Origin: a virus
Reading direction: 5' to 3' (one strand)
Virus record (IMG/VR): IMGVR_UViG_3300020437_000003
Location: 81,972-145,971 of that record
Length of the DNA stretch: 64,000 bases
Shown here piece after piece: positions 29,764 through 46,831 of this stretch; the first letter of the stretch is position 1, and the number at the start of each line of letters is the position of its first letter. The notes beneath the pieces were generated by a model. It saw nothing but the letters and a program-made list of their open reading frames with translations, had not been told where the DNA came from and made no database searches. A program made the translations under genes and the position numbers.

Positions 29764-32700
29764 ATGGCAGAGCGGGTTTACTCTAAAATTAAATTTGTAG
29801 GACTGCACGCGCACAGTGTGGCTGGTTCTATCTTTGATGCTATTGGATATCCACAGGATCATATGGATTTTGCATATGAGAACGGATGTGAAGCACTAGC
29901 ACTAACAGATCACGGTAATATGAACGGGCTAGCTTATCAGGTGTTGCATGCCAAGAAAATGCAAGAGGCCGGTAAAGAGTTCAAGCCGATTTTTGGTTGT
30001 GAAGCATATTTCACTCCCTCCATTACAGAGTGGCGCGATGCCTATGAGCAAGCTATGGCAGACAAGAAGCGCGCCCGTTCAATCAAGAAAGACGCTCAAT
30101 CTGGCGCTACCGTTGAGGACGAGGGCAATAGTAAACAAGTTCAAGATATTTTACGTCGCCGGCGTCACCTTGTCCTGCTAGCGCAGAATCAAACTGGGCT
30201 GAACAATCTATTTAAGTTGGTATCCGAATCATATCAACCGGAGAATTTTTACCGCTACCCACGTATTGACTATGCGCTATTGGAAAAGTACAATGAGGGC
30301 ATCATCGCTTCTTCTGCTTGTCTTGGCGGGGTGTATGCAGGTAACTACTGGGAAAATCGAGAGGAAGGCGATGAAGCCGTGCTTGAAGCTATGCGTGAAA
30401 CAACAGCACGTATGGTGGACATTTTCGGTGATCGCTGGTATGCCGAGATCCAGTGGAATAATATTAAAGAGCAACATGAATTGAACAAATATGTAATTCA
30501 AGTTGCCAAAGAGTTTGGCGTTGGACTGGTTTCTACAGCCGATAGCCATTACCCCAACCCTGACGCTTGGAAGGACCGTGAGCTTTACAAGCGTCTTGGT
30601 TGGCTTGGCAAAGGCACTCCATCTTGGGCTGAAGGCGAATCAGAGTTGCCAGATGGCGTCGAAGAGATTGGTTACGAGCTATACCCTAAGAATGGGGATC
30701 AGATGTGGGAGAGTTACAAGCAATACTCTAAGGAACAAGGTTTTGATTATGATGATGACTTGGTTTTGCAAAGTATTGAAGAAACGCACCGTATCGCCTT
30801 TGAGCGCATTGAAAAGTTTTTGCCGGATAATACCGTTCGTTTGCCTGAATTCGTCGTTCCAGCAGGGTTTACGGCCACGCAAGCACTTGTAAACTATGCG
30901 CTTGAGGGACTAAAAGACAAAGGACTTCATACAAACAAAGAATATACCGATCGTCTGCGTCAAGAACTCAACGTTATTGATGACCGAGGATTCTCAAAGT
31001 ATTTCTTAACAATGAAGTCCATTGTTGATGTGGCAACTGATATGATGCTCACAGGCCCCGGTCGAGGATCTGCTGCAGGTTCGTTAGTTGCATACGCTCT
31101 TAATATCACAACAGTTGACCCGATTAAACACGGACTGCTGTTCTCTCGGTTTTTGCGATCAGACGCAACAGACTATCCAGATATCGATTATGATGTGTCT
31201 GATAGTATGACCTTGAAGGAGAAGCTGGTCGAAATGTGGGGTGAGGACTGTGTTGCTCCCATTTCTAATTGGAATACTCTGCAACTCAAGTCACTGATCA
31301 AAGATATTTCAAAATTGTACAACATCGAATTTACAGAAGTTAATACTGTAACCTCTATTATGATTCGAGAGGCTACACCCGCCGCTAAGCAGAAACACGG
31401 CATTCGAGCCGGTGTTTATAGTCCCACGTGGGAAGAGGTGATTGAATTCTCGCCAACATTGCGTGCATACCTTGATAAGTATCCAGCGGTTAAAACACAC
31501 GTTGAAGGTCTGGTTGGTCAGGTTCGTTCTTGTTCTCGACATGCTGGCGGTGTGGTCATCGCAGAGGACCTTGATAAGAGTATGCCCTTAATTAATTCAG
31601 GCGGCGTCCGTCAGGCTCCGTGGGCTGAAGGTCAGAACGTCAGGCACCTCGAACCGATGGGATTTATTAAGTTCGACTTACTCGGTCTCTCTACGCTCAA
31701 GATGATGGAAGGTGCTATTTATCACATCCTCAAGCGTCATCACGGAGTTGAGGAGCCAACCTTCGCTCAAGTGCGCGAATATTACGAAAAGAACTTACAC
31801 CCTGATGTAATCGATTTGAATGATCAGAATGTGTATAAAAATATCTTTCATAAGGGTAAATGGGCAGGTATCTTCCAGTTCACAGAGCACGGAGCACAAC
31901 AGTTCTGTACTCGAGTGAAGCCAACCAACATCATTGATGTGTCAGCTATCACATCTATTTATCGTCCGGGTCCACTAGCTGCTAATGTACACGACGAATA
32001 TGTTGAGGCAAAGGAAAGCCCACACTATATCCAGTATCTAAATGAAGACGCTCGCGAAATCACTGAGGAAACTTTTGGCTTTCTAATCTTTCAAGAACAG
32101 ATTGCACTGCTTGCTCACAAGCTTGGCGGCTTAACACTTGATGAAGGTAATATGCTTCGTAAAGTGTTGACAAAGAAGGGTACGGGTAAAGGCTCAGTGA
32201 AGAATAAACTTCATAGTAAGTTTATTGATGGATGCGTATCCAAGAAGATCCCACGAGATGAAGCGCAAGCTCTTTGGGATAAGTTTGAATATTTCTCTGG
32301 ATACGGTTTCAATAAGTCTCACGCCGTAAGTTATTCAATTATCTCCTACCAGTGTGCTTGGCTATTCAACTACTACCCTGCTGAATGGATGGCAGCTTTC
32401 TTGGACAAAGAGCCAGAATCTCGTAAGGAAAAAGCAATCAACATTGCCAAGAAATATGGATTCGAGATTGCCGCCTTAGATATTAATAAATCTGGTACTG
32501 TCTGGGAGATTAGTGACGATGGTAAAACACTTATTCAACCATTGACATCGATTAAGGGCCTAGGTATGGCAGCCATCGAGCAAGTGTTGGAAAATAGACC
32601 ATTCATGAATGCCGAAGATCTTCTATTCCGCGAAGATATTTCGTATAGCAAACTCAATAAGAAAGCGCTCGATGCACTTTGCCGCGGCGGTGCACTAGAC

Positions 32701-33198
32701 AATATTGTAGATGATCGTTTTACGGGACGTAAACATTTCTGGTCTGCTTGTATTGTTGAGCGTCCTAAGAACTTGAAGAAATTTAGCGAGAACATTGATA
32801 TCTTTGCCCCCGAGGGTGACTTCTCTGAAGAGGAGATCATCCAGTTCAAAACCGAACTGATCGGTGTTTTCCCTATCAACCTCGTTATTTCTACAGAAAC
32901 TATTGAAAAGCTTAAGGAAAAGTACATTCCACCCATCTCTGAATTTGATGAAGAGTTGCAAATTTGTTGGTTTATCCCACGTAAGATTGTTGAGAAGAAA
33001 ACTAAGAATGGTAAACTTTATTGGATTATTGAGGCGATTGACTCAAACAATGAACTAACTAGAATTAGGTGCTGGGGAGTTAAGCCTGATAAAGATCAAG
33101 TTCATATCAACAGACCTTATATGAGCCGGCTTGACTACAATGAGCAGTGGGGATTTTCCACTCGTTCTATTCGGCACAATTTTAGATTGTTAGGATAA
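29764..33198 (+). CDS. dnaE: DNA polymerase III alpha subunit (DnaE-type, family C)
   Basis: This is probably the phage replicative polymerase. The 1144-residue product starts with a PHP domain with intact metal ligands (LHAH, 14-17, and TDHGN), often a proofreading or pyrophosphatase site. The polymerase core follows: GPGRGSAAGS, the catalytic Asp pair in PDIDYD (472-477), MGFIKFDLLGLSTLKMM with the third Asp, YRPGPL, and GYGFNKSHAVSYS. A helix-hairpin-helix region and an OB-like end follow. T4 uses a family-B enzyme instead. AGGAGG precedes the ATG. Confidence 0.95.
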   Translation: MAERVYSKIKFVGLHAHSVAGSIFDAIGYPQDHMDFAYENGCEALALTDHGNMNGLAYQVLHAKKMQEAGKEFKPIFGCEAYFTPSITEWRDAYEQAMADKKRARSIKKDAQSGATVEDEGNSKQVQDILRRRRHLVLLAQNQTGLNNLFKLVSESYQPENFYRYPRIDYALLEKYNEGIIASSACLGGVYAGNYWENREEGDEAVLEAMRETTARMVDIFGDRWYAEIQWNNIKEQHELNKYVIQVAKEFGVGLVSTADSHYPNPDAWKDRELYKRLGWLGKGTPSWAEGESELPDGVEEIGYELYPKNGDQMWESYKQYSKEQGFDYDDDLVLQSIEETHRIAFERIEKFLPDNTVRLPEFVVPAGFTATQALVNYALEGLKDKGLHTNKEYTDRLRQELNVIDDRGFSKYFLTMKSIVDVATDMMLTGPGRGSAAGSLVAYALNITTVDPIKHGLLFSRFLRSDATDYPDIDYDVSDSMTLKEKLVEMWGEDCVAPISNWNTLQLKSLIKDISKLYNIEFTEVNTVTSIMIREATPAAKQKHGIRAGVYSPTWEEVIEFSPTLRAYLDKYPAVKTHVEGLVGQVRSCSRHAGGVVIAEDLDKSMPLINSGGVRQAPWAEGQNVRHLEPMGFIKFDLLGLSTLKMMEGAIYHILKRHHGVEEPTFAQVREYYEKNLHPDVIDLNDQNVYKNIFHKGKWAGIFQFTEHGAQQFCTRVKPTNIIDVSAITSIYRPGPLAANVHDEYVEAKESPHYIQYLNEDAREITEETFGFLIFQEQIALLAHKLGGLTLDEGNMLRKVLTKKGTGKGSVKNKLHSKFIDGCVSKKIPRDEAQALWDKFEYFSGYGFNKSHAVSYSIISYQCAWLFNYYPAEWMAAFLDKEPESRKEKAINIAKKYGFEIAALDINKSGTVWEISDDGKTLIQPLTSIKGLGMAAIEQVLENRPFMNAEDLLFREDISYSKLNKKALDALCRGGALDNIVDDRFTGRKHFWSACIVERPKNLKKFSENIDIFAPEGDFSEEEIIQFKTELIGVFPINLVISTETIEKLKEKYIPPISEFDEELQICWFIPRKIVEKKTKNGKLYWIIEAIDSNNELTRIRCWGVKPDKDQVHINRPYMSRLDYNEQWGFSTRSIRHNFRLLG

Positions 33199-33203
33199 AA
33201 AAT

Positions 33204-33806
33204 ATGAACGTAATGAGATATTATAGCCCGCTTCTCAAAGAGCCAGAGCTAAAAAATGAACCTGTCATTGTTAGGATTAATAAATTCGACGAAGCCACAG
33301 CAAAAGCTTTTTCAACAGCAATTATGAAGGCTCAAAACACAGGCCAGAACATAATACCAGTTATTATCGACAGTTATGGTGGTCAAGTTTATAGTTTGAT
33401 GTCAATGATATCCGATATCAAACACTCCAAAGTTCCAGTGGCAACAATAGTTCAAGGCAAGGCGATGTCTTGCGGTGCTATATTGTTTAGTTTTGGTGCT
33501 GAAGGTCATAGATATATGGATCCTGATTCGACGCTTATGATTCATGATGTTAGTTCTATGGGCTGGGGCAAAGTCGAAGAGATTAAAGCATCTGCTGAGG
33601 AAACTGATCGTCTTAATACGAAGATATATCATATGATGGCGGAAAACTGCGGTCATCACTCAGACTATTTTCTCGATATTGTGCACGATAAGGGGCATTC
33701 TGATTGGTTTTTAGAGCATGACGAGTGCCTGAAGCATAATTTAGCTAATCACAGCTACGTCCCAGACTTTAGTGTATCTATCAAGGTTGAATTTGGACTT
33801 CATTAA
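33204..33806 (+). CDS. ClpP-like serine protease, complete triad
   Basis: The 200-residue product has the ClpP fold: IDSYGGQVYSLMSM (56-69), GKAMSCGA with Ser89, LMIHDV with His114, and SDWFL with Asp167 in the position of the third catalytic residue. The N-terminus is short and lacks a processing peptide. No phage Clp ATPase is seen, so it may use a host unfoldase, or may act as a capsid-maturation protease as ClpP relatives do in some phages. It starts six bases after dnaE. Confidence 0.88.
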   Translation: MNVMRYYSPLLKEPELKNEPVIVRINKFDEATAKAFSTAIMKAQNTGQNIIPVIIDSYGGQVYSLMSMISDIKHSKVPVATIVQGKAMSCGAILFSFGAEGHRYMDPDSTLMIHDVSSMGWGKVEEIKASAEETDRLNTKIYHMMAENCGHHSDYFLDIVHDKGHSDWFLEHDECLKHNLANHSYVPDFSVSIKVEFGLH

Positions 33807-34562: not shown

Positions 34563-35549
34563 TTGATTACAGATATTGTTTTGGGCATACAGCACGGTGA
34601 TGAGGGTAAAGGAAAGGTAACTCATCATTTACTTAAGAATGGCGACTACACACATTGCATACGCTTTAACGGTGGGTGTAACGCGGGCCACACTATCTTT
34701 CACAACGATAAGAAATTTGTTACCCACCATATTCCAGCATCGGTATTCTTTGGGATCCCGGCGATCATTGGGCCCGGATGTGTGGTTAACATTGACAAGT
34801 TTCTTAAAGAGCTAAACTATCTAGCAGAAAACGGGATTGACATTGAGAACAATGTTAAGATTGCTAGAAACGCTCATATTATTACTAAAGAACACGTAAC
34901 CGAAGATTCTAAAGACTATAAGATTGGCACCACTAAGTCTGGTAATGGTCCTGCGTATAGAGATAAGTTTCACAGATCAGGTGTTCGTGCCGAGAACGTA
35001 CCGCTGCTAGCTCCTTTTATTGTGGATATGCAAGAAGAATTATACGGTGGTGAGGAATCAGTTATTCTAATGGAAGGGGCCCAAGGCTTTTGGCTTGATG
35101 TGGATTGGGGTGATTACCCATTTGTGACAAGTAGCAACTGTGGTGTTGGTGCAGCCATCAATAATGGGATTGATCCTCGATCAATTCGTAATGTGTGGGG
35201 TGTTGCAAAAGTTTACGAAACTTATGTTGGAATGAAAAAATTTCAGCCAGAAGACAAAATATTTGAGACTATTCAAAAAGCAGGTTCAGAATTTGGTGCA
35301 ACGACCGGCCGCGTTCGGCAATGTAACTGGCTTGACTTTGAGAAACTTACTAGAGCTATTCGTATGAATGGAGTAAACAAGCTGATCTTTAATAAAGTTG
35401 ATGTACTACGTGAAGTTAAAAGTTGGGGTATGAAAAATCCAGACGCTTTCTTTGCTGATGGTGAAGACGGCTTTATGAAATTTATCACCGACAATGCCCC
35501 AGAATGTGTAGATGAAATTTTCTTCTCTGCATCCCCAAAAACTATTTGA
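34563..35549 (+). CDS. purA: Adenylosuccinate synthetase (PurA-like, short form)
   Basis: This enzyme makes adenylosuccinate from IMP, aspartate and GTP. Start is the TTG at 34563 after AGGAGG. The 328-residue product has the GTP loop HGDEGKGK with the catalytic Asp13, NAGHT with His43, GTTKSGNGPAYRDK, MEGAQGFWLDVDWG, YPFVTSSN and GATTGRVRQ. It is about 100 residues shorter than E. coli PurA, similar to archaeal and phage PurZ forms. Typical PurZ, which makes a 2-aminoadenine precursor, has Ser at the Asp13 position; Asp here favours ordinary PurA, though a PurZ0-type activity is not excluded. Confidence 0.9.
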   Translation: MITDIVLGIQHGDEGKGKVTHHLLKNGDYTHCIRFNGGCNAGHTIFHNDKKFVTHHIPASVFFGIPAIIGPGCVVNIDKFLKELNYLAENGIDIENNVKIARNAHIITKEHVTEDSKDYKIGTTKSGNGPAYRDKFHRSGVRAENVPLLAPFIVDMQEELYGGEESVILMEGAQGFWLDVDWGDYPFVTSSNCGVGAAINNGIDPRSIRNVWGVAKVYETYVGMKKFQPEDKIFETIQKAGSEFGATTGRVRQCNWLDFEKLTRAIRMNGVNKLIFNKVDVLREVKSWGMKNPDAFFADGEDGFMKFITDNAPECVDEIFFSASPKTI

Positions 35550-35597: not shown

Positions 35598-35849
35598 GTG
35601 TCAAACGAAGACCAACGTATGCAATACGTTAAAGAATATATCCGTTCCCTTGTGGCAATTGAAGAAGCAATGGAGCCTTACAAAGAACAAAAGCGCGAAC
35701 TCCGAGCTGAATTTAGGGAGAATGGCTGGCTTAGCACTGACGAAATTCGTGCTGCTGTGAAGGCATACCGTCTTTTTAAGGATAACGTGGACATTGATGA
35801 AGTCGTTGAAAACTTTAACATGTTTAGGGGAGGTCAAAATGATAATTGA
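35598..35849 (+). CDS. Small helical protein, GapR-like
   Basis: The start is a GTG after AGGAGG. The 83-residue product is charged and helical, with VKEYIRSLVAIEEAMEPYKE then KRELRAEFRENGWLSTDEI and AVKAYRLFK. This order (helix, charged helix, a G-containing turn, then a basic helix) resembles the DUF2312/GapR family of alphaproteobacterial nucleoid proteins that bind overtwisted DNA. Identification by eye is tentative. It overlaps dUTPase by 11 bases. Confidence 0.45.
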   Translation: MSNEDQRMQYVKEYIRSLVAIEEAMEPYKEQKRELRAEFRENGWLSTDEIRAAVKAYRLFKDNVDIDEVVENFNMFRGGQNDN

Positions 35850-36300
35850 GTATGCCCGTACACGTCCTGATGCACACGATCCACAGAGGGCCAATCCTTC
35901 TGACGCAGGGCTTGATGTTTTTTATTCACCAGTAAACGAAGGACAAGCAATATCAGTAAATCCCGGTGAAAGTCGCATTATCCCTACAGGACTGCGATTC
36001 GGTATTCCACACGGGTATATGCTGGAGGTAAAGAATCGAAGCTCTGTGGCTTCTAAGCGCTCATTGCTTGTTGGTGCTTGTGTTATTGATTCTGGATATG
36101 ATGGAGAGGTCTTTATCAATCTACACAACGTCGGAAAAAGCCCACAGTTTTTACAGTCAGGCGACAAGATTGCACAAGTTGTAATGATTCCAGTTGTAAA
36201 TTTTAGGGCCGTACACAGTACATCAGGTGATTTGTATCGTAGTGCGATTACTATTAGCGATAGAGGTGATGGAGCCTTGGGGAGCACTGATGAGTCCTGA
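35839..36300 (+). CDS. dut: dUTPase
   Basis: This enzyme hydrolyses dUTP to dUMP, keeping uracil out of DNA and feeding dTMP synthesis. I choose the ATG at 35839, behind GGGAGG, giving 153 residues. The five trimeric dUTPase motifs are present in order: SDAGLDVF, NRSSVA (with RSS), GVCVIDSGY-like ACVIDSGYDGE, a GDKIAQVVMIPV segment, and a C-terminal RGDGALGST in place of RGxGGFGST. Confidence 0.93.
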   Translation: MIIEYARTRPDAHDPQRANPSDAGLDVFYSPVNEGQAISVNPGESRIIPTGLRFGIPHGYMLEVKNRSSVASKRSLLVGACVIDSGYDGEVFINLHNVGKSPQFLQSGDKIAQVVMIPVVNFRAVHSTSGDLYRSAITISDRGDGALGSTDES

Positions 36301-36784
36301 GCAACGTTATCAAATGCTTTATGAGGAATTGGCACAAGTCTGCAAAGAGGAAGGGTGGGGCGATCCTTTTAGTTACGCACGTAGCAAAGAAATCTATGCA
36401 GCTACAGTTCTAGGACATACGGTTGCCGACACATTTTCTGGTGCCGATGCTGTCAATGCAGAGGGTCAGGAGGTAGAATACAAGTCTACTATTTCAAGTA
36501 AGTGTAAAGGTTCTTATACTGGCATCTCAGTTCAGTCATCTTGGCAAGAACAAAAGCGATATTTATTTGAAGAAAAGCTTGCAAAATACCCTGAACACTA
36601 TTATAATAGGTTTAAAGACGGCAAGCTTGTTGAGTCTTGGAAAATGAGCGGCATTGATGTCTACAATATCTTGCTGCCGAAGCTTGAGCAAAAATACGAT
36701 ACTGTCTTAGATAAAAAAGATCCACGTCTAAGCGCAAACATTACGTGGTCTGAAATTCAACAATATGGGACAAAGGTAATTTAA
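36290..36784 (+). CDS. PD-(D/E)xK-type restriction endonuclease candidate
   Basis: I choose the ATG at 36290, overlapping the dUTPase stop, giving 164 residues. The core is GADAVNAEGQEVEYKST (51-67), in which Asp53, Glu63 and Lys65 form a D-x9-ExK nuclease site. A hydrophobic, aromatic C-terminal half follows (WKMSGIDVYNILLPKL). It is immediately followed by a ParB-like gene and two DNA methyltransferases, which suggests a restriction-modification-like unit. Substrate and cleavage site are unknown. The active-site call comes from motif geometry only. Confidence 0.6.
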   Translation: MSPEQRYQMLYEELAQVCKEEGWGDPFSYARSKEIYAATVLGHTVADTFSGADAVNAEGQEVEYKSTISSKCKGSYTGISVQSSWQEQKRYLFEEKLAKYPEHYYNRFKDGKLVESWKMSGIDVYNILLPKLEQKYDTVLDKKDPRLSANITWSEIQQYGTKVI

Positions 36785-36785
36785 A

Positions 36786-37757
36786 ATGAGAGAACAAATT
36801 TACGATGATCTTAAAGGTAAGATTTCTAATTTTGACATCCTATACACACAACTTGTACCCACAAGTTCACTAAAGTATAGTAAAAGCAAATCACAAATTA
36901 GATCTGCTGGTCATATGACGAGTAAAATTCCTGCTTATACGGCCACCTTTCGACAAGATGGTCCTAAAGCATTTCCTCCTGCATCAGTCCGCAAGCTGCC
37001 GGGTGGAGAATATGAGCTAAAAGATGGAAATACACGAGCTTTAGCCGCAGAGGCTGCCGGAACACATTTATGGGTTAGCTGGTATCATGATACTCAGCTT
37101 ACTCCTACTCCTGATGAGTGGGAAGATCTGCAGTTGCAATTTAACGATCACCCTAAAAGCTCACCTAACGCTTCACAAGATATTAAAGATTATCTTTGTC
37201 GTCAGCAATCGTCTGGGGCGATGACTTTAAAGGTTGGATTTGCCTACACTGGAAACGAAGACAAATATATCGAACAGGCTGTAGATATTTATCGGAAGAA
37301 ACTGCCCAACGCTGGAAAGGAAAAAGATTGGTGGGTTCGCTCTATTGAGGGTTCCCTTAAAGGACACATTGGTGTGCGATATGAAACATACACTAAGAAG
37401 CAGCTTTTTGAAATGTACAAGACACTGCATAACTTTTCAGGCACAAAGGTGGGCGAGATCTCAAGCGGCGAGGCAGTCTTCCCTTTTATGAACTTGAGTC
37501 ATACAAATCCAAATGTTATTGGTTTCATCGCGTCTAAGGCTATGGATAATTTAAACATCACTTATACATTAATATATTGTGTGGGTAATATGGCTGGCAA
37601 GAATGATGCTAAGCTAAAAGCTGAAAGACAAAAGGTTCTTGATTGGGCAAAGAAAGTATCTAAGCATTATGGCTGGAACATTAATGTATACTTTGCGCCA
37701 CAAATTAAGAGTGGCACAAACAAAGAAAATATGTACCAACTTAAAACCACACCATGA
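36786..37757 (+). CDS. ParB/Srx-fold N-terminal protein
   Basis: The 323-residue product has a ParB-like nuclease-type N-terminal fold: LVPTSSLKYSKSK (about 22-34), a strand set with a GGEYELKDGNTRALAAEAAG motif (about 76-95), where DGNTR matches the ParB dGnhR box that binds nucleotide. The remaining two thirds are of unknown fold with many aromatic residues. It starts one base after the nuclease candidate and overlaps the methyltransferase gene by four bases. It may be the specificity or regulatory partner of the unit. Confidence 0.6.
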   Translation: MREQIYDDLKGKISNFDILYTQLVPTSSLKYSKSKSQIRSAGHMTSKIPAYTATFRQDGPKAFPPASVRKLPGGEYELKDGNTRALAAEAAGTHLWVSWYHDTQLTPTPDEWEDLQLQFNDHPKSSPNASQDIKDYLCRQQSSGAMTLKVGFAYTGNEDKYIEQAVDIYRKKLPNAGKEKDWWVRSIEGSLKGHIGVRYETYTKKQLFEMYKTLHNFSGTKVGEISSGEAVFPFMNLSHTNPNVIGFIASKAMDNLNITYTLIYCVGNMAGKNDAKLKAERQKVLDWAKKVSKHYGWNINVYFAPQIKSGTNKENMYQLKTTP

Positions 37758-38629
37758 ACAGTATAGTCTTTAAACATCAAGAAGGTCTACAGTTTCTGTC
37801 GGATATACCCGATAACTCTGTAGATCTAATCTTGACAGACCCGCCTTATATCACATCGCGTGATTCAGGTATGGACAAGTGGGTTAATCATATCGCTAAA
37901 CAAGATACATCTGGCTCCGTCAATGTAATGACTGAGAAGGATTGGAATGAGTATAAGACCACTGAACAATGGAATCAGTGGTTTGAAAACTCAAATGTTG
38001 ATGTATTAAAGCGTCCAAATGCCTTGAAGAAAATGAAAGCAGACTTTCTTAAGTATGGTAGCATCTATGGTAAAAAATATGCTGTTAAAACCAACTACGG
38101 TAAATGGGATTCAGAATTTACGATGGAGCAGCTTGAGCTATTTGTAAAGCATTTTTATCGCATTCTTCGTCCCGGTGGCACGTGTATTATGTTTTTTGAT
38201 TTGTGGAAGATTACCAACCTCAAGGACATGCTTGAGGGCGAGAAGTTTAAGCAAATAAGAATGATTGAGTGGTTGAAAACAAACCCGCAACCGATCAACA
38301 GCAAAGTTAATTATCTTACAAACTGTAGAGAGATTGCGTTACTCGGCATTAAAAAATCTAAGCCCACATTCAATAGTAAGTATGACAAGGGGGTATACGA
38401 ATACCCATTGCAGGGCGGTAAAGATCGCTTTCACCCTACACAGAAAAGTCTACCACTGTTCGAGGATTTGATCAAGAAACACTCGAATGAGGGTGATACT
38501 GTATTAGATTGCTTTGCCGGCTCTGCCACCACTGCAATTGCTGCGATGAGAAATAATCGTAACTTTATTGGTTGCGAGATGGATGAAACATATTATATTA
38601 AATCTATGGAGAGAATAAAAAATGGATAA
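37754..38629 (+). CDS. DNA (N6-adenine or N4-cytosine) methyltransferase
   Basis: The 291-residue product has the catalytic motif DPPY (29-32) near the N-terminus and the S-adenosylmethionine-binding FAGSAT (254-259) near the C-terminus, followed by NFIGCEMDETYY. That order is the beta class of amino-methyltransferases (N6_N4_Mtase family). RFHPTQKSLPLFEDLI just before motif I is typical. It lies directly behind the nuclease and ParB-like genes and overlaps the next methyltransferase by eight bases. It probably protects phage DNA. Confidence 0.9.
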   Translation: MNSIVFKHQEGLQFLSDIPDNSVDLILTDPPYITSRDSGMDKWVNHIAKQDTSGSVNVMTEKDWNEYKTTEQWNQWFENSNVDVLKRPNALKKMKADFLKYGSIYGKKYAVKTNYGKWDSEFTMEQLELFVKHFYRILRPGGTCIMFFDLWKITNLKDMLEGEKFKQIRMIEWLKTNPQPINSKVNYLTNCREIALLGIKKSKPTFNSKYDKGVYEYPLQGGKDRFHPTQKSLPLFEDLIKKHSNEGDTVLDCFAGSATTAIAAMRNNRNFIGCEMDETYYIKSMERIKNG

Positions 38630-39095
38630 GAATACACAAGTTGTTATGTTTAGTTCAAAAACAGGTAACTGGGCAACACCACACGATTTCTTTTTAAAAT
38701 TGGATTGGAGATTTGGCCCTTTTGATCTTGACCCTTGTGCTAGTCACAGTAACGCTAAATGTGATAAGTACTTTACTGAAGAAGAGAATGGTCTTGATAA
38801 AGATTGGACTGGTAACAATGTTTTTGTAAACCCACCATATGGGCGAGGTATTGATAAGTGGATTAAGAAAGCTTACGAGTCAGCGTTAGAGCCTGACACT
38901 AAAGTTGTGATGCTTATTCCAGCACGTACAGATACAAAGTATTGGCATAACTATGTAATGAAGGCATCAGAGATTTATTTTGTTAGAGGTAGACTTAAAT
39001 TCGGTGATAGCGACAACTCCGCACCATTTCCATCTGCCGTTGTAGTATTCAATGGCAAGTCTGGGCCGTGGAGAGTCGAAGGCATTAACAGATAG
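38622..39095 (+). CDS. Phage Dam-type N6-adenine methyltransferase
   Basis: The 157-residue product matches the short phage Dam family: WATPHDFFLKLD (18-29), FDLDPCAS (34-41), a KYF element, and NPPYG (70-74) as the catalytic motif, with VVMLIPARTDTKYWH following. It modifies adenine in a short site. It overlaps the upstream beta-class enzyme, so two methyltransferases are produced together. Confidence 0.9.
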   Translation: MDKNTQVVMFSSKTGNWATPHDFFLKLDWRFGPFDLDPCASHSNAKCDKYFTEEENGLDKDWTGNNVFVNPPYGRGIDKWIKKAYESALEPDTKVVMLIPARTDTKYWHNYVMKASEIYFVRGRLKFGDSDNSAPFPSAVVVFNGKSGPWRVEGINR

Positions 39096-39724: not shown

Positions 39725-40061
39725 AAAGATATTAGGCGGAGAAGTCAAGGAAGATGCTACCTGTGTGATTAAGTTTTATTCTAATGGTTGTCATTTGTGT
39801 CATAACTTGAAAGATTATTATGAAGATATATCGAATAATGATCAATTTTCTGACATCCATTTTTTTGCTTTTAATGTTGACAACTATCCCGACATTGAAA
39901 AGCAATTAAAGTTCAATGGCGTACCAACGATATCCCTAGTGAAAACTTATACAGAAGACGTAAGTCCTAAAGTTCGGATTTTAAAAGATCCAGATAAGCC
40001 CAATGAGCAAACTTGGTATCGCTCTAGGGATATAAAACAATTTATAACGGAGATGAAATGA
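39690..40061 (+). CDS. Thioredoxin/glutaredoxin-like protein
   Basis: The 123-residue product starts at GTG behind GGGAGG. A strand leads to FYSNGCHLCHNL with a CHLC redox pair, followed by FNVDNYPDIEKQLKFNGVPTI containing the cis-proline of the thioredoxin fold. It could reduce the phage class II ribonucleotide reductase through that enzyme's C-terminal Cys pair. That link is inferred. Confidence 0.8.
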   Translation: MSVTRLSTEGLKKILGGEVKEDATCVIKFYSNGCHLCHNLKDYYEDISNNDQFSDIHFFAFNVDNYPDIEKQLKFNGVPTISLVKTYTEDVSPKVRILKDPDKPNEQTWYRSRDIKQFITEMK

Positions 40062-41116
40062 TGCCACTTACAAATTCCAGAGAAATGTTATCATATGATG
40101 ATGTTCTTTTGGTACCACAATATTCTGATATTCGTAGCAGGTCCGAGGTCAGTACTACAACCGATCTAGGCAACGGCTTGGTCTTGAATCTGCCTGTTCT
40201 GGCCTCACCTATGGATACTATTTCTGAGACAGCTATGGCTGTCTCTCTGGGTCGTCTTGGCGGCGCCGCTATCATTCACAGGTATAACAGCGCCGAGAAT
40301 CAATGCCGTATGGTATCTATGGCCTGCGAGATTGCAAAGACAAAGTATAATATGTCTATTGACATTGGTGCAGCAGTCGGTATTTCAGGAGACTTCGTTG
40401 AAAGAGCGACAGCGCTAATTGATGCGGGTGCAACATTTTTATGTGTTGATGTTGCTCACGGCCACCATATTTTAATGAAGGAGGCTATTACAAAAATTCG
40501 ACAAGCGGCTGGCAGTAATGTTCATATCATGGCTGGTAATGTTGCTACACTAGAGGGGATCAACGATCTAGCAGATTGGGGTGCTGACTCTATTCGTTGC
40601 AACATTGGTGGTGGTTCTATTTGTTCGACTAGGGTACAGACGGGCCATGGTGTCCCGGGCCTGCAAACCATCTTAGATTGCTCGCAAACCGACCGAAATG
40701 TGACAATTATCGCTGATGGTGGAATTAGAAACTCTGGTGATATTGTAAAAGCTTTCGCCTGTGGCGCTGACGCGGTTATGTGCGGCTCTCTTTTGGCAGG
40801 AACAGATGAAAGTCCCGGTAAGATTCAGGAAGACTTGAATGGCTCTAGATGGAAAACTTATCGAGGTATGGCCTCAAAAGAGGCACAAGTTAGCTGGCGA
40901 GGTAATTATTCTTCATTTGAGGGTGTTTCTGCAAGGGTTCCATATAGAGGATCGGTTGTCAAGATTCTTCAAGACTTAGAACGTGGTATTCGTTCTGGCT
41001 TCTCATACAGTGGTGCTAGAACGCTCACAGAGTTTCAGTCAGTAGCAGAACTAATCAAGCAGACGCCGGCCGGAATGGGCGAGAGCAGAACGCATATATT
41101 AGGGAGAAAGTGGTGA
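40058..41116 (+). CDS. IMP dehydrogenase / GMP reductase family enzyme, no CBS domains
   Basis: The 352-residue barrel protein has LSYDDVLLVPQYS, ASPMDTISE, IIADGGIRNSGD and GGGSICSTR (about 187-195) with the catalytic Cys, then YRGMAS and VPYRGSV. The regulatory CBS pair of bacterial GuaB is absent. The ASPMDT and VLLVP segments favour IMP dehydrogenase, while length and an early SRSEV segment also fit GMP reductase. It would act at the IMP branch point of purine synthesis together with the phage PurA. It overlaps the thioredoxin-like gene by four bases. Confidence 0.88.
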   Translation: MMPLTNSREMLSYDDVLLVPQYSDIRSRSEVSTTTDLGNGLVLNLPVLASPMDTISETAMAVSLGRLGGAAIIHRYNSAENQCRMVSMACEIAKTKYNMSIDIGAAVGISGDFVERATALIDAGATFLCVDVAHGHHILMKEAITKIRQAAGSNVHIMAGNVATLEGINDLADWGADSIRCNIGGGSICSTRVQTGHGVPGLQTILDCSQTDRNVTIIADGGIRNSGDIVKAFACGADAVMCGSLLAGTDESPGKIQEDLNGSRWKTYRGMASKEAQVSWRGNYSSFEGVSARVPYRGSVVKILQDLERGIRSGFSYSGARTLTEFQSVAELIKQTPAGMGESRTHILGRKW

Positions 41117-42467: not shown

Positions 42468-42875
42468 GTGGATCCATTTTGGTTATATGCGCTAGTTTTT
42501 TTGTTTGGATATGTCACATGTCAAACGTTTTATTTTTTTAAGTCAACGAGGGTTTCACTTAAATTAATGAAATCAGGTAGAGTCATCTACTTATTGATGA
42601 TGGCAAAAGCAATGGAAAATTATAAAATTGCAGAAGAAGTAATGCTCACAAATCTTAAAGATTCTGAGAGTGATCAAATTGTTATTGATAGGTTTAAAAG
42701 AGGCGTAGAAGACGAAAGAAAAAGTTTTAAAAGTAAGAGTGTAATGTGGTTAATTAATAACACACCTCAAACATTTAGAGATATCATAGGATTTGATGAT
42801 TGGGATTCTGCAATGCAATACCTTGTTCTCCATCAAGAAGAGGCATATAAATTTTGGAGAATAGATAATGATTAA
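42468..42875 (+). CDS. Membrane-anchored protein of unknown function
   Basis: I choose the GTG at 42468, behind CGGGGG and after the terminator T run; an upstream ATG at 42438 lies inside the hairpin. The 135-residue product has an N-terminal transmembrane helix (PFWLYALVFLFGYV) followed by a basic, helical cytoplasmic part. It overlaps the ClpP-like gene by eight bases. Confidence 0.65.
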   Translation: MDPFWLYALVFLFGYVTCQTFYFFKSTRVSLKLMKSGRVIYLLMMAKAMENYKIAEEVMLTNLKDSESDQIVIDRFKRGVEDERKSFKSKSVMWLINNTPQTFRDIIGFDDWDSAMQYLVLHQEEAYKFWRIDND

Positions 42876-43500
42876 TAGAATATTGGATAGGATTGCAGGT
42901 GGTAAAAAGGTTAGTGACAAAGAAAAGAAACTTTTAGAAAGTGAACTTGAAAAACTACTTGCTTCTCCTCCGCAACCGGACTTGCGAGTGATAGGTTTGT
43001 TCTCTGATGTTTCAGACGACAAAATAGCTGAGTTGATACACGCGCTGATATATCTCGACGAGATTAACAGAATCACTGACGAAAATAGACCAGTAGAATT
43101 TTATATCTCAACGTATGGTGGCTCCGCTGATGATATGTTTGGGATGTATGATATAATGCGTGTAATAAGAGAGCGCACCCCAATTCAAACTATTGGTTTG
43201 GGCAAGGTTATGTCAGCAGGCGTCTTGTTATTAGCTGCCGGCACCAAAGGAAAGCGTTGTATTGGTAAAAACTGTAGAGTAATGGTTCACTCTGTTATTG
43301 GTGGTAGCCATGGCCCACTTCACAATCTTATAAATGAAATGGATGCCATCGAGCAGATACAAAAAATGTACAGTGACGCCCTCATAGCAGAGACCAACTT
43401 GACAAAGAAAGATTTAAAGAAGCTTCTGGAGAAGAAAGTAAATGTCTATTTATCTGCAGAAGAAGCGGTAGAACTAGGGATCGCAGACATTATTGTATAA
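42868..43500 (+). CDS. Second ClpP-like protease, Asn in place of catalytic Asp
   Basis: The 210-residue product has the ClpP signature: ISTYGGSADDMFGMYD (80-95), GKVMSAGV with Ser116, VMVHSV with His141, and YLSAEEAVELGIAD near the C-terminus. Where E. coli ClpP has the third residue Asp171, this protein has Asn192. It may have altered or weak activity. It is only distantly similar to the ClpP-like protein at 33204. It could pair with that protein or process virion proteins. Confidence 0.85.
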   Translation: MINRILDRIAGGKKVSDKEKKLLESELEKLLASPPQPDLRVIGLFSDVSDDKIAELIHALIYLDEINRITDENRPVEFYISTYGGSADDMFGMYDIMRVIRERTPIQTIGLGKVMSAGVLLLAAGTKGKRCIGKNCRVMVHSVIGGSHGPLHNLINEMDAIEQIQKMYSDALIAETNLTKKDLKKLLEKKVNVYLSAEEAVELGIADIIV

Positions 43501-45244: not shown

Positions 45245-46831
45245 ATGAGTCGAGCATATGACGACAATCAATCATTACAACAAAAGATTATAACAGGAGC
45301 CAATGTTCTAGCAGACAACGTTGCCTCTACACTCGGCCCTCGCGGCCGAAATGTTCTGCTACAAGAAAAAGGCAAGAATCCATTTATTACCAAGGACGGT
45401 GTTACTGTTGCCGCGTTTGTTTCTCTTGATGATCCATTTGAAAACGCTGGTGCTCAAATCATTCGACAAGCAGCTATTGAAACTAACAACGGTGCTGGAG
45501 ATGGCACCACTACATCAACCGTGTTGGCTCGCTCTATTTTAACAGAAGCACAGAAATTTATTGCGTCTGGGGTTTCACCAATTGAGCTACAACGCGGCAT
45601 TGAGGCCTCTGTTAAACAAGTTGTCTTAAATCTGAAAGATATGGCGATACCGATTAATAGTCTTGAAGATGTTGAGCACATTGCCACTATATCGGCCAAC
45701 AATGATGCGTCCATTGGAAAACTCATTGCAATGGCTTTTGACCGGGTTGGCCATGATGGCTCAATTACAATTGAGGAATCAAATTCTATTGACACCTCCC
45801 TCGATATCACAGAGGGCTTTAGTTTTAATTCTGGGTATTGTGCCTCTGCTTTTGTTACAGATGATCGCAGGGCTGTAATGCATCACGATGATCCTATGAT
45901 ATTGGTAACCGATTATCGAATTACTTCGGTTGATCAAATCCTGCCTGTGCTTGAGACTGCAGCGCGCGAAGGTCGCCCATTGATTATTGTTTCTGAAGAC
46001 ATTGAAGGCCAAGCATTAGCAGCGTTAATTATGAATGCTATGCGAGGTACGATGAAGGTAGCTGCCATCAAAGCCCCCGGATACGGAGAGGAGCGTAGAA
46101 ACACATTGTCTGATTTGGCATTATCTGTAGGTGCAACATTTGTATCAAAGGAGAGCGGCAAGAAATTGCAAGATACCAAGATGATTGATTTTGGGACTTC
46201 TAAATTTGTTGAGTCAAGTAAAAATAGTACTATCTTTGTTGGTGGCAATGCCAATGTTGAAGTTATCGAAAGTAAAATTGACTCGTTAAAAGCAATTATG
46301 GAAGATACCGACTCTCTTGACGCTTGCAGAATGATACAAAATAGAATTACACGACTTGCATCCGGCGTAGCTGTCATCCGTGTTGGTGGAGCAACAGAAG
46401 TTGAAATGACCGAGAAAAAGCACAGGATTGAGGATGCACTAGAGGCTGTAAAAGCCGCACAAGATGAGGGTGTAGTGCCCGGTGGCGGGACAGCGTTATT
46501 ACGTGCTTGTCAAAAGATGGTTATTGCCACTGAAGATGGCCACCATGAGCAGATTAATGGCGCTGTCATTGTTAAGAATGCCTGTTATGCACCCATTAGA
46601 CAGATGGCTGAAAACGCTGGCTTGTCTCCTGACATTATTGTACAAGAAGTTTTGGATTCTGATACTAATATGGGCTGGAACTTTAGGAGTAACCAACTAA
46701 CAGATTTAACAAGTGATGGTGTCATTGATCCCGTGAAGGTTACACGTACTGCCCTGCAAAATGCCGCTAGTTGCGCCGGAACACTGATAACAACAAACTA
46801 CGGAATTGTTCAAACTGGGGCCGATGTATGA
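45245..46831 (+). CDS. groEL: GroEL-type chaperonin
   Basis: This ATP-driven folding chamber subunit is 528 residues, against 548 in E. coli. It has ASTLGPRGRNVLLQ (near 27-40), the ATP-binding GDGTTTSTV, the apical YGEERR, and the ATPase Asp in the segment EDALEAVKAA before EGVVPGGGTALL. The C-terminal Gly-Gly-Met repeat of bacterial GroEL is absent. Phage-encoded GroEL is uncommon. With the phage GroES-like protein it could replace or modify the host system for capsid folding. It has its own strong promoter. Confidence 0.96.
   Translation: MSRAYDDNQSLQQKIITGANVLADNVASTLGPRGRNVLLQEKGKNPFITKDGVTVAAFVSLDDPFENAGAQIIRQAAIETNNGAGDGTTTSTVLARSILTEAQKFIASGVSPIELQRGIEASVKQVVLNLKDMAIPINSLEDVEHIATISANNDASIGKLIAMAFDRVGHDGSITIEESNSIDTSLDITEGFSFNSGYCASAFVTDDRRAVMHHDDPMILVTDYRITSVDQILPVLETAAREGRPLIIVSEDIEGQALAALIMNAMRGTMKVAAIKAPGYGEERRNTLSDLALSVGATFVSKESGKKLQDTKMIDFGTSKFVESSKNSTIFVGGNANVEVIESKIDSLKAIMEDTDSLDACRMIQNRITRLASGVAVIRVGGATEVEMTEKKHRIEDALEAVKAAQDEGVVPGGGTALLRACQKMVIATEDGHHEQINGAVIVKNACYAPIRQMAENAGLSPDIIVQEVLDSDTNMGWNFRSNQLTDLTSDGVIDPVKVTRTALQNAASCAGTLITTNYGIVQTGADV

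Follow-up and report, generated by a model that had tools for sequence, protein, structure and literature searches.

A putative virus-borne type II restriction-modification locus with an exchangeable gene slot between a PvuII-fold nuclease and an adenine-type methyltransferase

Type II restriction-modification (RM) is usually viewed as a bacterial defence against phages. Viruses can also carry an adjacent restriction endonuclease and methyltransferase (MTase): the chlorovirus RM is thought to degrade host DNA (PMC7019647), and marseillevirus RM has been argued to exclude rivals (PMC7253447). In phages, fusions of a ParB fold with an N6_N4 MTase are common, and ParB-fold proteins in some cases bind CTP, ATP or GTP (PMC12704722). 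Conflict systems repeatedly contain ParB-fold domains, SNF2-type ATPases and DNA methylases, and the source that describes them also cites a nicking activity of a ParB-methylase (PMC5512222). A ParB-like partner is thus not without precedent, although a sequence-only reading of the DNA studied here held that ordinary RM has none.

The phage locus described below resembles the R.PvuII system in the predicted full-length PvuII fold of its nuclease, in the D-x9-E-x-K motif and in the presence of a DNA MTase encoded by a separate adjacent ORF. It differs in that the PvuII base-contact residues are not kept, no C-protein was recognised, the MTase is a DPPY adenine-type enzyme instead of the N4-cytosine M.PvuII, and the locus is phage-borne and carries an extra gene in a slot between the two enzymes. 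Compared with the chlorovirus and marseillevirus systems, the carrier is a bacteriophage and not a eukaryotic virus, the slot is exchangeable and the locus is known from sequence alone. It shares with the phage ParB-CTPase-fold/N6_N4 MTase fusions the coupling of a ParB fold to a PF01555 MTase, but here the two are separate genes, a PvuII-fold nuclease is encoded upstream and the ParB part can be exchanged. The paraMORC/GHKL ATPases of RM neighbourhoods and MzaB have a counterpart in the GHKL slot occupant of two related loci (L017, L038), though as a single GHKL gene in an RM-like phage operon. Finally, the modification-dependent BisI family (Eco15I, NhoI) also has a PvuII-like fold, but its structural similarity is lower and its members are described as orphans without an MTase (PMC11347163).

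The window, i.e. the whole stretch of 64,000 nucleotides that was analysed, belongs to a virus record of 145,971 bases and encodes a tail sheath, a DnaB-like helicase, a ribonucleotide reductase and a GroEL-like chaperonin. The locus comprises four genes on the plus strand: a candidate restriction endonuclease with a predicted PvuII fold (36290-36784, 164 aa), a ParB/sulfiredoxin-fold protein in the exchangeable slot (36786-37757, 323 aa), a beta-class adenine-type DNA MTase presumed to be cognate (37754-38629, 291 aa) and a phage Dam-family N6-adenine MTase, which is a frequent accessory (38622-39095, 157 aa). A 1-bp gap separates the nuclease and ParB-like genes, the ParB-like and MTase genes overlap by 4 bases, and the MTase and Dam genes by 8. 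The start of the nuclease ORF overlaps by 11 bases the upstream dUTPase gene (35839-36300, plus strand; PF00692, E=2e-16), which forms the conserved left flank.

The 164-aa protein matches the Pfam PvuII model weakly (E=0.009) and the single-chain PvuII sequence somewhat better (E=0.0015), and it belongs with PHROG 35715, annotated as unknown function (E=8e-60). Its AlphaFold2 model, built from 34 family members, has a mean pLDDT of 91.5, and the best PDB match of this model by Foldseek is PvuII itself (1f0o; E=1.5e-7, TM 0.66/0.70, 163 columns), the match spanning essentially the whole length of the predicted structure. The next family among the Foldseek hits (13-24) is that of the modification-dependent Eco15I and NhoI. 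The residues of the D-x9-E-x-K triad, D53, E63 and K65 (36446-36484), are invariant in both the 23- and the 34-sequence family alignments and align with D58, E68 and K70 of PvuII. The predicted structure is thus that of a complete restriction endonuclease fold of the PvuII type.

The 291-aa protein is an N6_N4_Mtase (PF01555, E=3.5e-32) with DPPY preceding FAGS, the motif order of the beta class, and its closest solved relative is the DpnA-type MTase 5hfj (E=2e-26). The 157-aa protein is a phage Dam (PF05869, E=2e-34; 119 bits against a Pfam gathering score of 28.1), and its match to TIGR01712 (E=4e-27) falls slightly below the cut-off of that model. The 323-aa protein is composed of an N-terminal ParB-like domain (QxR..G, DGNTR), a helical middle part and a C-terminal alpha/beta domain with FxPQ. 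By itself, it matched no ParB model in profile searches. Its AF2 model (pLDDT 77.5) has Noc, ParB, KorB and sulfiredoxin as top Foldseek matches, and profiles of the wider ParB-like family match sulfiredoxin, Noc, ParB and phage ParB families. The four ORFs, their strand, gap and overlaps and the four assignments proposed in the sequence-only reading (a D-x9-ExK nuclease candidate, a ParB/Srx-fold protein, a beta-class MTase and a phage Dam) are all borne out, the ParB/Srx fold through the model and the family profiles though not through the single sequence; in particular, the absence of a nuclease fold, which would have spoken against that reading, was checked and a PvuII fold was predicted. 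A role of the ParB-like protein in ParABS partition was rejected, since no ParA was found by AAA_31 matching in the 146-kb record, which is possibly incomplete, with the controls being positive. The protein is probably an accessory, NTP-binding partner that acts on DNA.

PvuII contacts its bases through D34, S81, H84, H85, N140 and N141, the role of D34 being named in the title of PDB entry 3pvi. None of these contacts is kept in the phage nuclease, which carries Y29, I79/S80 and K143/D144 at the corresponding positions (with an alignment offset, the C-terminal part being aligned by eye), so that its specificity may differ or be absent. Since Y29, Y76, S80, K143 and D144 are constant across the 23-sequence alignment while differing from PvuII, the family seems to share another recognition site, which is probably not CAGCTG. 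As judged by dN/dS, the nuclease is under purifying selection: three pairs gave 0.07-0.09, and a fourth, close pair gave 0.38. Counting of palindromes over the whole record gave zero CAGCTG, TTCGAA, GTCGAC and GAGCTC against 8.8-19.8 expected (14.8 for CAGCTG), and the pooled loci of the DnaE clade contain no GAGCTC against 22 expected and a single CTCGAG against 29.5; P-SSM2 has six CAGCTG. Because several of these palindromes are scarce together, no recognition site was inferred from word avoidance. CATG is low in all genomes and loci counted.

An alignment scan revealed relatives of the nuclease in at least 240 IMG/VR stretches, of which 80 confirmed ones were kept (an earlier first scan had fetched 27 loci). 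The bacterial genome set yielded a single contig with a relative, a short MAG contig, which indicates that this is a phage family. Among named phages, only the cultured Prochlorococcus phages P-SSM2, P-SSM5 and P-TIM68 matched, all with unannotated hypothetical or predicted proteins, and no description of the family was found among the matches of literature searches that covered open-access text.

To assess linkage, 79 distinct nuclease loci were considered, 64 of which extend 600 bases or more upstream and 1500 or more downstream. An adenine-type MTase gene lies within 3 kb of the nuclease in 63 of these 64; the exception, P-SSM2, carries an M.EcoRI-like MTase (80% identical) 7 kb upstream. 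The nearest MTase is of the beta class, as in the window, in 31 loci and M.EcoRI-like in 32, the latter being an unrelated protein of roughly 180 residues. The MTase type changes at least five times on the nuclease tree; indeed, the sister nucleases of L018 and L019 lie beside an M.EcoRI-like and a beta-class MTase, respectively. A need for a cognate MTase would lead to just such exchange of one MTase for a non-homologous one next to the same nuclease. Nuclease and adenine-type MTase are, in this comparison of sequences, the conserved core and carry the predicted signature of a cognate RM pair. A diverged nuclease allele (38-40% identity) is found beside the beta-class MTase in L132, L197 and L199. 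The Dam gene follows the MTase in many, not all, relatives of the DnaE clade.

Two other proteins were observed before the MTase. In L131 (4462-5004), a different 180-aa protein takes the place of the nuclease; it carries the DGMDFEGSDGLRYECKM motif, D-x-E-x-K-like by eye, and has a very weak MjaI match. In L135 (3509-4936), a phage contig that lacks the PvuII-fold nuclease, a 475-aa protein is encoded immediately 5' of the MTase. The MTase itself contains an insert directly after DPPY (37850-38060 in the window; also compared in L006, L007, L009 and L020) of at least three types, two long ones or none, which may be a specificity module. We compared slot type and insert type by eye across loci, and no association held.

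The position between nuclease and MTase is occupied by about eight gene types, or by none, across related phages. Close homologues of the ParB-like gene of the window are present in L030 and L031 and diverged ones in L007, L008 and L049. A second ParB-like group (ParB2) occurs in L006, L012, L197 and L199, with a 33% identical member in L133, and a third (ParB3) in L009 and L019, with one at 33% in L134; profile comparison with hhalign places ParB1, ParB2 and ParB3 in one superfamily. Other occupants are a GHKL ATPase (L017, L038) matching MzaB (3e-11), MORC2 (8.5e-7) and the BbrUII/HgiDII restriction enzyme (2e-6), a 639-residue protein with helicase-like motifs (L015, L016) and a protein of 469-475 residues (L013, L137) with weak C-terminal HNH matches (E=0.06 and 0.02) and no useful match in a PDB search. 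An SF2 label for the 639-residue protein was not adopted, its basis being P-loop/DEAH-like motifs seen by eye and very weak matches. A GmrSD type IV reading (GmrSD_N, DUF262, plus HNH) was considered for the 469-475-residue protein; the weak HNH match was the one sign of it, and DUF262 was not confirmed.

The slot is empty in L011, L020-L022, L132 and others, indicating that the partner gene is dispensable. In L053 and L057 a ParB-like gene lies 3' of the MTase instead, and in L126, L130, L139 and L147 one is paired with the MTase without this nuclease. When mapped on a 24-phage tree of IMPDH, which is encoded nearby, slot type changes 15 times, compared with an average of 17.0 for shuffled labels, and slot turnover is thus close to unstructured. 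The ParB-like gene is therefore, on this gene content, not a fixed member of the putative unit. As to the four-gene island of the sequence-only reading, the search for the same gene set in other phages upheld the nuclease-MTase core; the set of four is not kept, the ParB-like gene being one of many slot occupants and Dam a frequent extra.

Exchange can be followed between close phages. L030 and L038 are 99.96% identical upstream (2 mismatches in 5002 bp) and 99.5% identical downstream (18 in 3404 bp), whereas between the dUTPase end and the MTase start L030 carries a nuclease and a ParB-like gene (1530 bp) and L038 another nuclease allele and a GHKL ATPase (2086 bp). When the window is compared with L006, the alignment reaches 91% and 85% in the flanks and 95% in the nuclease, while the slot gene differs, together with the MTase beyond its first 153 bases.

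These data are best explained, with a probability that we put at about 0.6, by a putative type II RM unit that is carried by the virus and has a slot for exchangeable partners, a reading drawn from sequence and predicted fold. A short DNA site would be open to cutting by the PvuII-fold enzyme as long as it is unmethylated, and the adjacent beta-class adenine-type MTase would methylate that site in phage DNA. The phage DNA would thus be spared, and the nuclease could destroy the host chromosome and/or the DNA of competing phages. Dam would add a second, separate methylation, and the ParB/Srx-fold protein would be an accessory in a slot where related phages use other RM-associated ATPases. Cleavage and its specificity, protection of phage DNA, the host or competitor as target and whatever function the slot protein has are all putative. 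The earlier proposal of a phage-borne restriction or competitor-exclusion unit therefore survives in its nuclease fold and in the phage-borne RM reading, and fails in its four-gene make-up. Several observations weigh against this reading: the base contacts of PvuII are not kept, no MTase adjoins the nuclease of P-SSM2, modification-dependent enzymes follow PvuII among the structural matches, the slot is empty in many loci, and a ParB-like gene pairs with the MTase in several phages where the nuclease is absent.

Such ParB-MTase pairs would also fit an anti-restriction island, in which the MTases shield phage DNA from host enzymes, the ParB-like protein serves in anti-restriction or defence, and the operon happens to include the nuclease as an independent enzyme of host takeover. 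Orphan phage MTases are indeed common, and the avoidance of several palindromes points to pressure from restriction enzymes. We nevertheless consider such an island rather unlikely, since a chance neighbourhood does not explain why an adenine-type MTase stays beside the nuclease in 63 of 64 loci despite the change of MTase type. The same linkage argues against a BisI-like, modification-dependent nuclease that would cut methylated foreign or host DNA and not unmethylated DNA. Eco15I and NhoI, which suggest such an activity, need methylated cytosine (PMC11347163), but the E-value of the PvuII match is lower by roughly two orders of magnitude, and modification-dependent enzymes are described as orphans, whereas this nuclease almost always lies beside an MTase; this activity is thus highly improbable. 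Scarcely more credible is a selfish mobile cassette, whose nuclease would drive its own spread between phages in a homing-like or RM-addiction-like manner, with slot genes hitchhiking. It would account for the joint exchange of nuclease allele and slot gene between phages that are otherwise nearly identical, the breakpoints lying at the flanking genes. On the other hand, the change between the window and L006 is confined to the slot gene and part of the MTase, with the nuclease still 95% identical, and recombination through conserved flanks accounts for both swaps without homing.

Within the preferred RM reading, the family of PvuII-fold nucleases kept beside adenine-type MTases in many metagenomic phages suggests that phages may run RM against hosts or rivals. 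The unusual feature is a single position rotating ParB- and ATPase-type genes between two RM genes, and it offers natural near-isogenic pairs (ParB versus GHKL ATPase) for studying poorly understood NTPases beside restriction enzymes. As a speculative and rather doubtful extension, this position could define a class of phage RM in which it acts as a dedicated socket that accepts one or another DNA clamp or motor driven by NTP (of the ParB/Srx-fold, MORC-like GHKL or helicase-like kind). With each of them, the small PvuII-type nuclease, itself unchanged, would gain a new NTP-dependent way of acting or choice of target, and phages would reshuffle nuclease, partner and MTase module by module in their arms race against hosts and rival phages.

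Several neighbouring genes of the window deserve mention. An adenylosuccinate-synthetase-like gene (34563-35549, 328 aa) keeps the GDEGKGK motif, and its best PHROG is named as the 2-amino-adenylosuccinate-synthetase type. Together with the nearby IMP dehydrogenase/GMP reductase-type gene (40058-41116), phage-borne and common to many relatives, and the dUTPase, it is possibly connected with the supply of purines or the modification of bases. A GroEL-like chaperonin (45245-46831) and a DnaE-like DNA polymerase III alpha (29764-33198, 1144 aa), the latter named from reading of the sequence, are also common to many relatives. Two ClpP-like protease genes were recognised by eye (33204-33806 and 42868-43500), and their mutual similarity is detectable in relatives.
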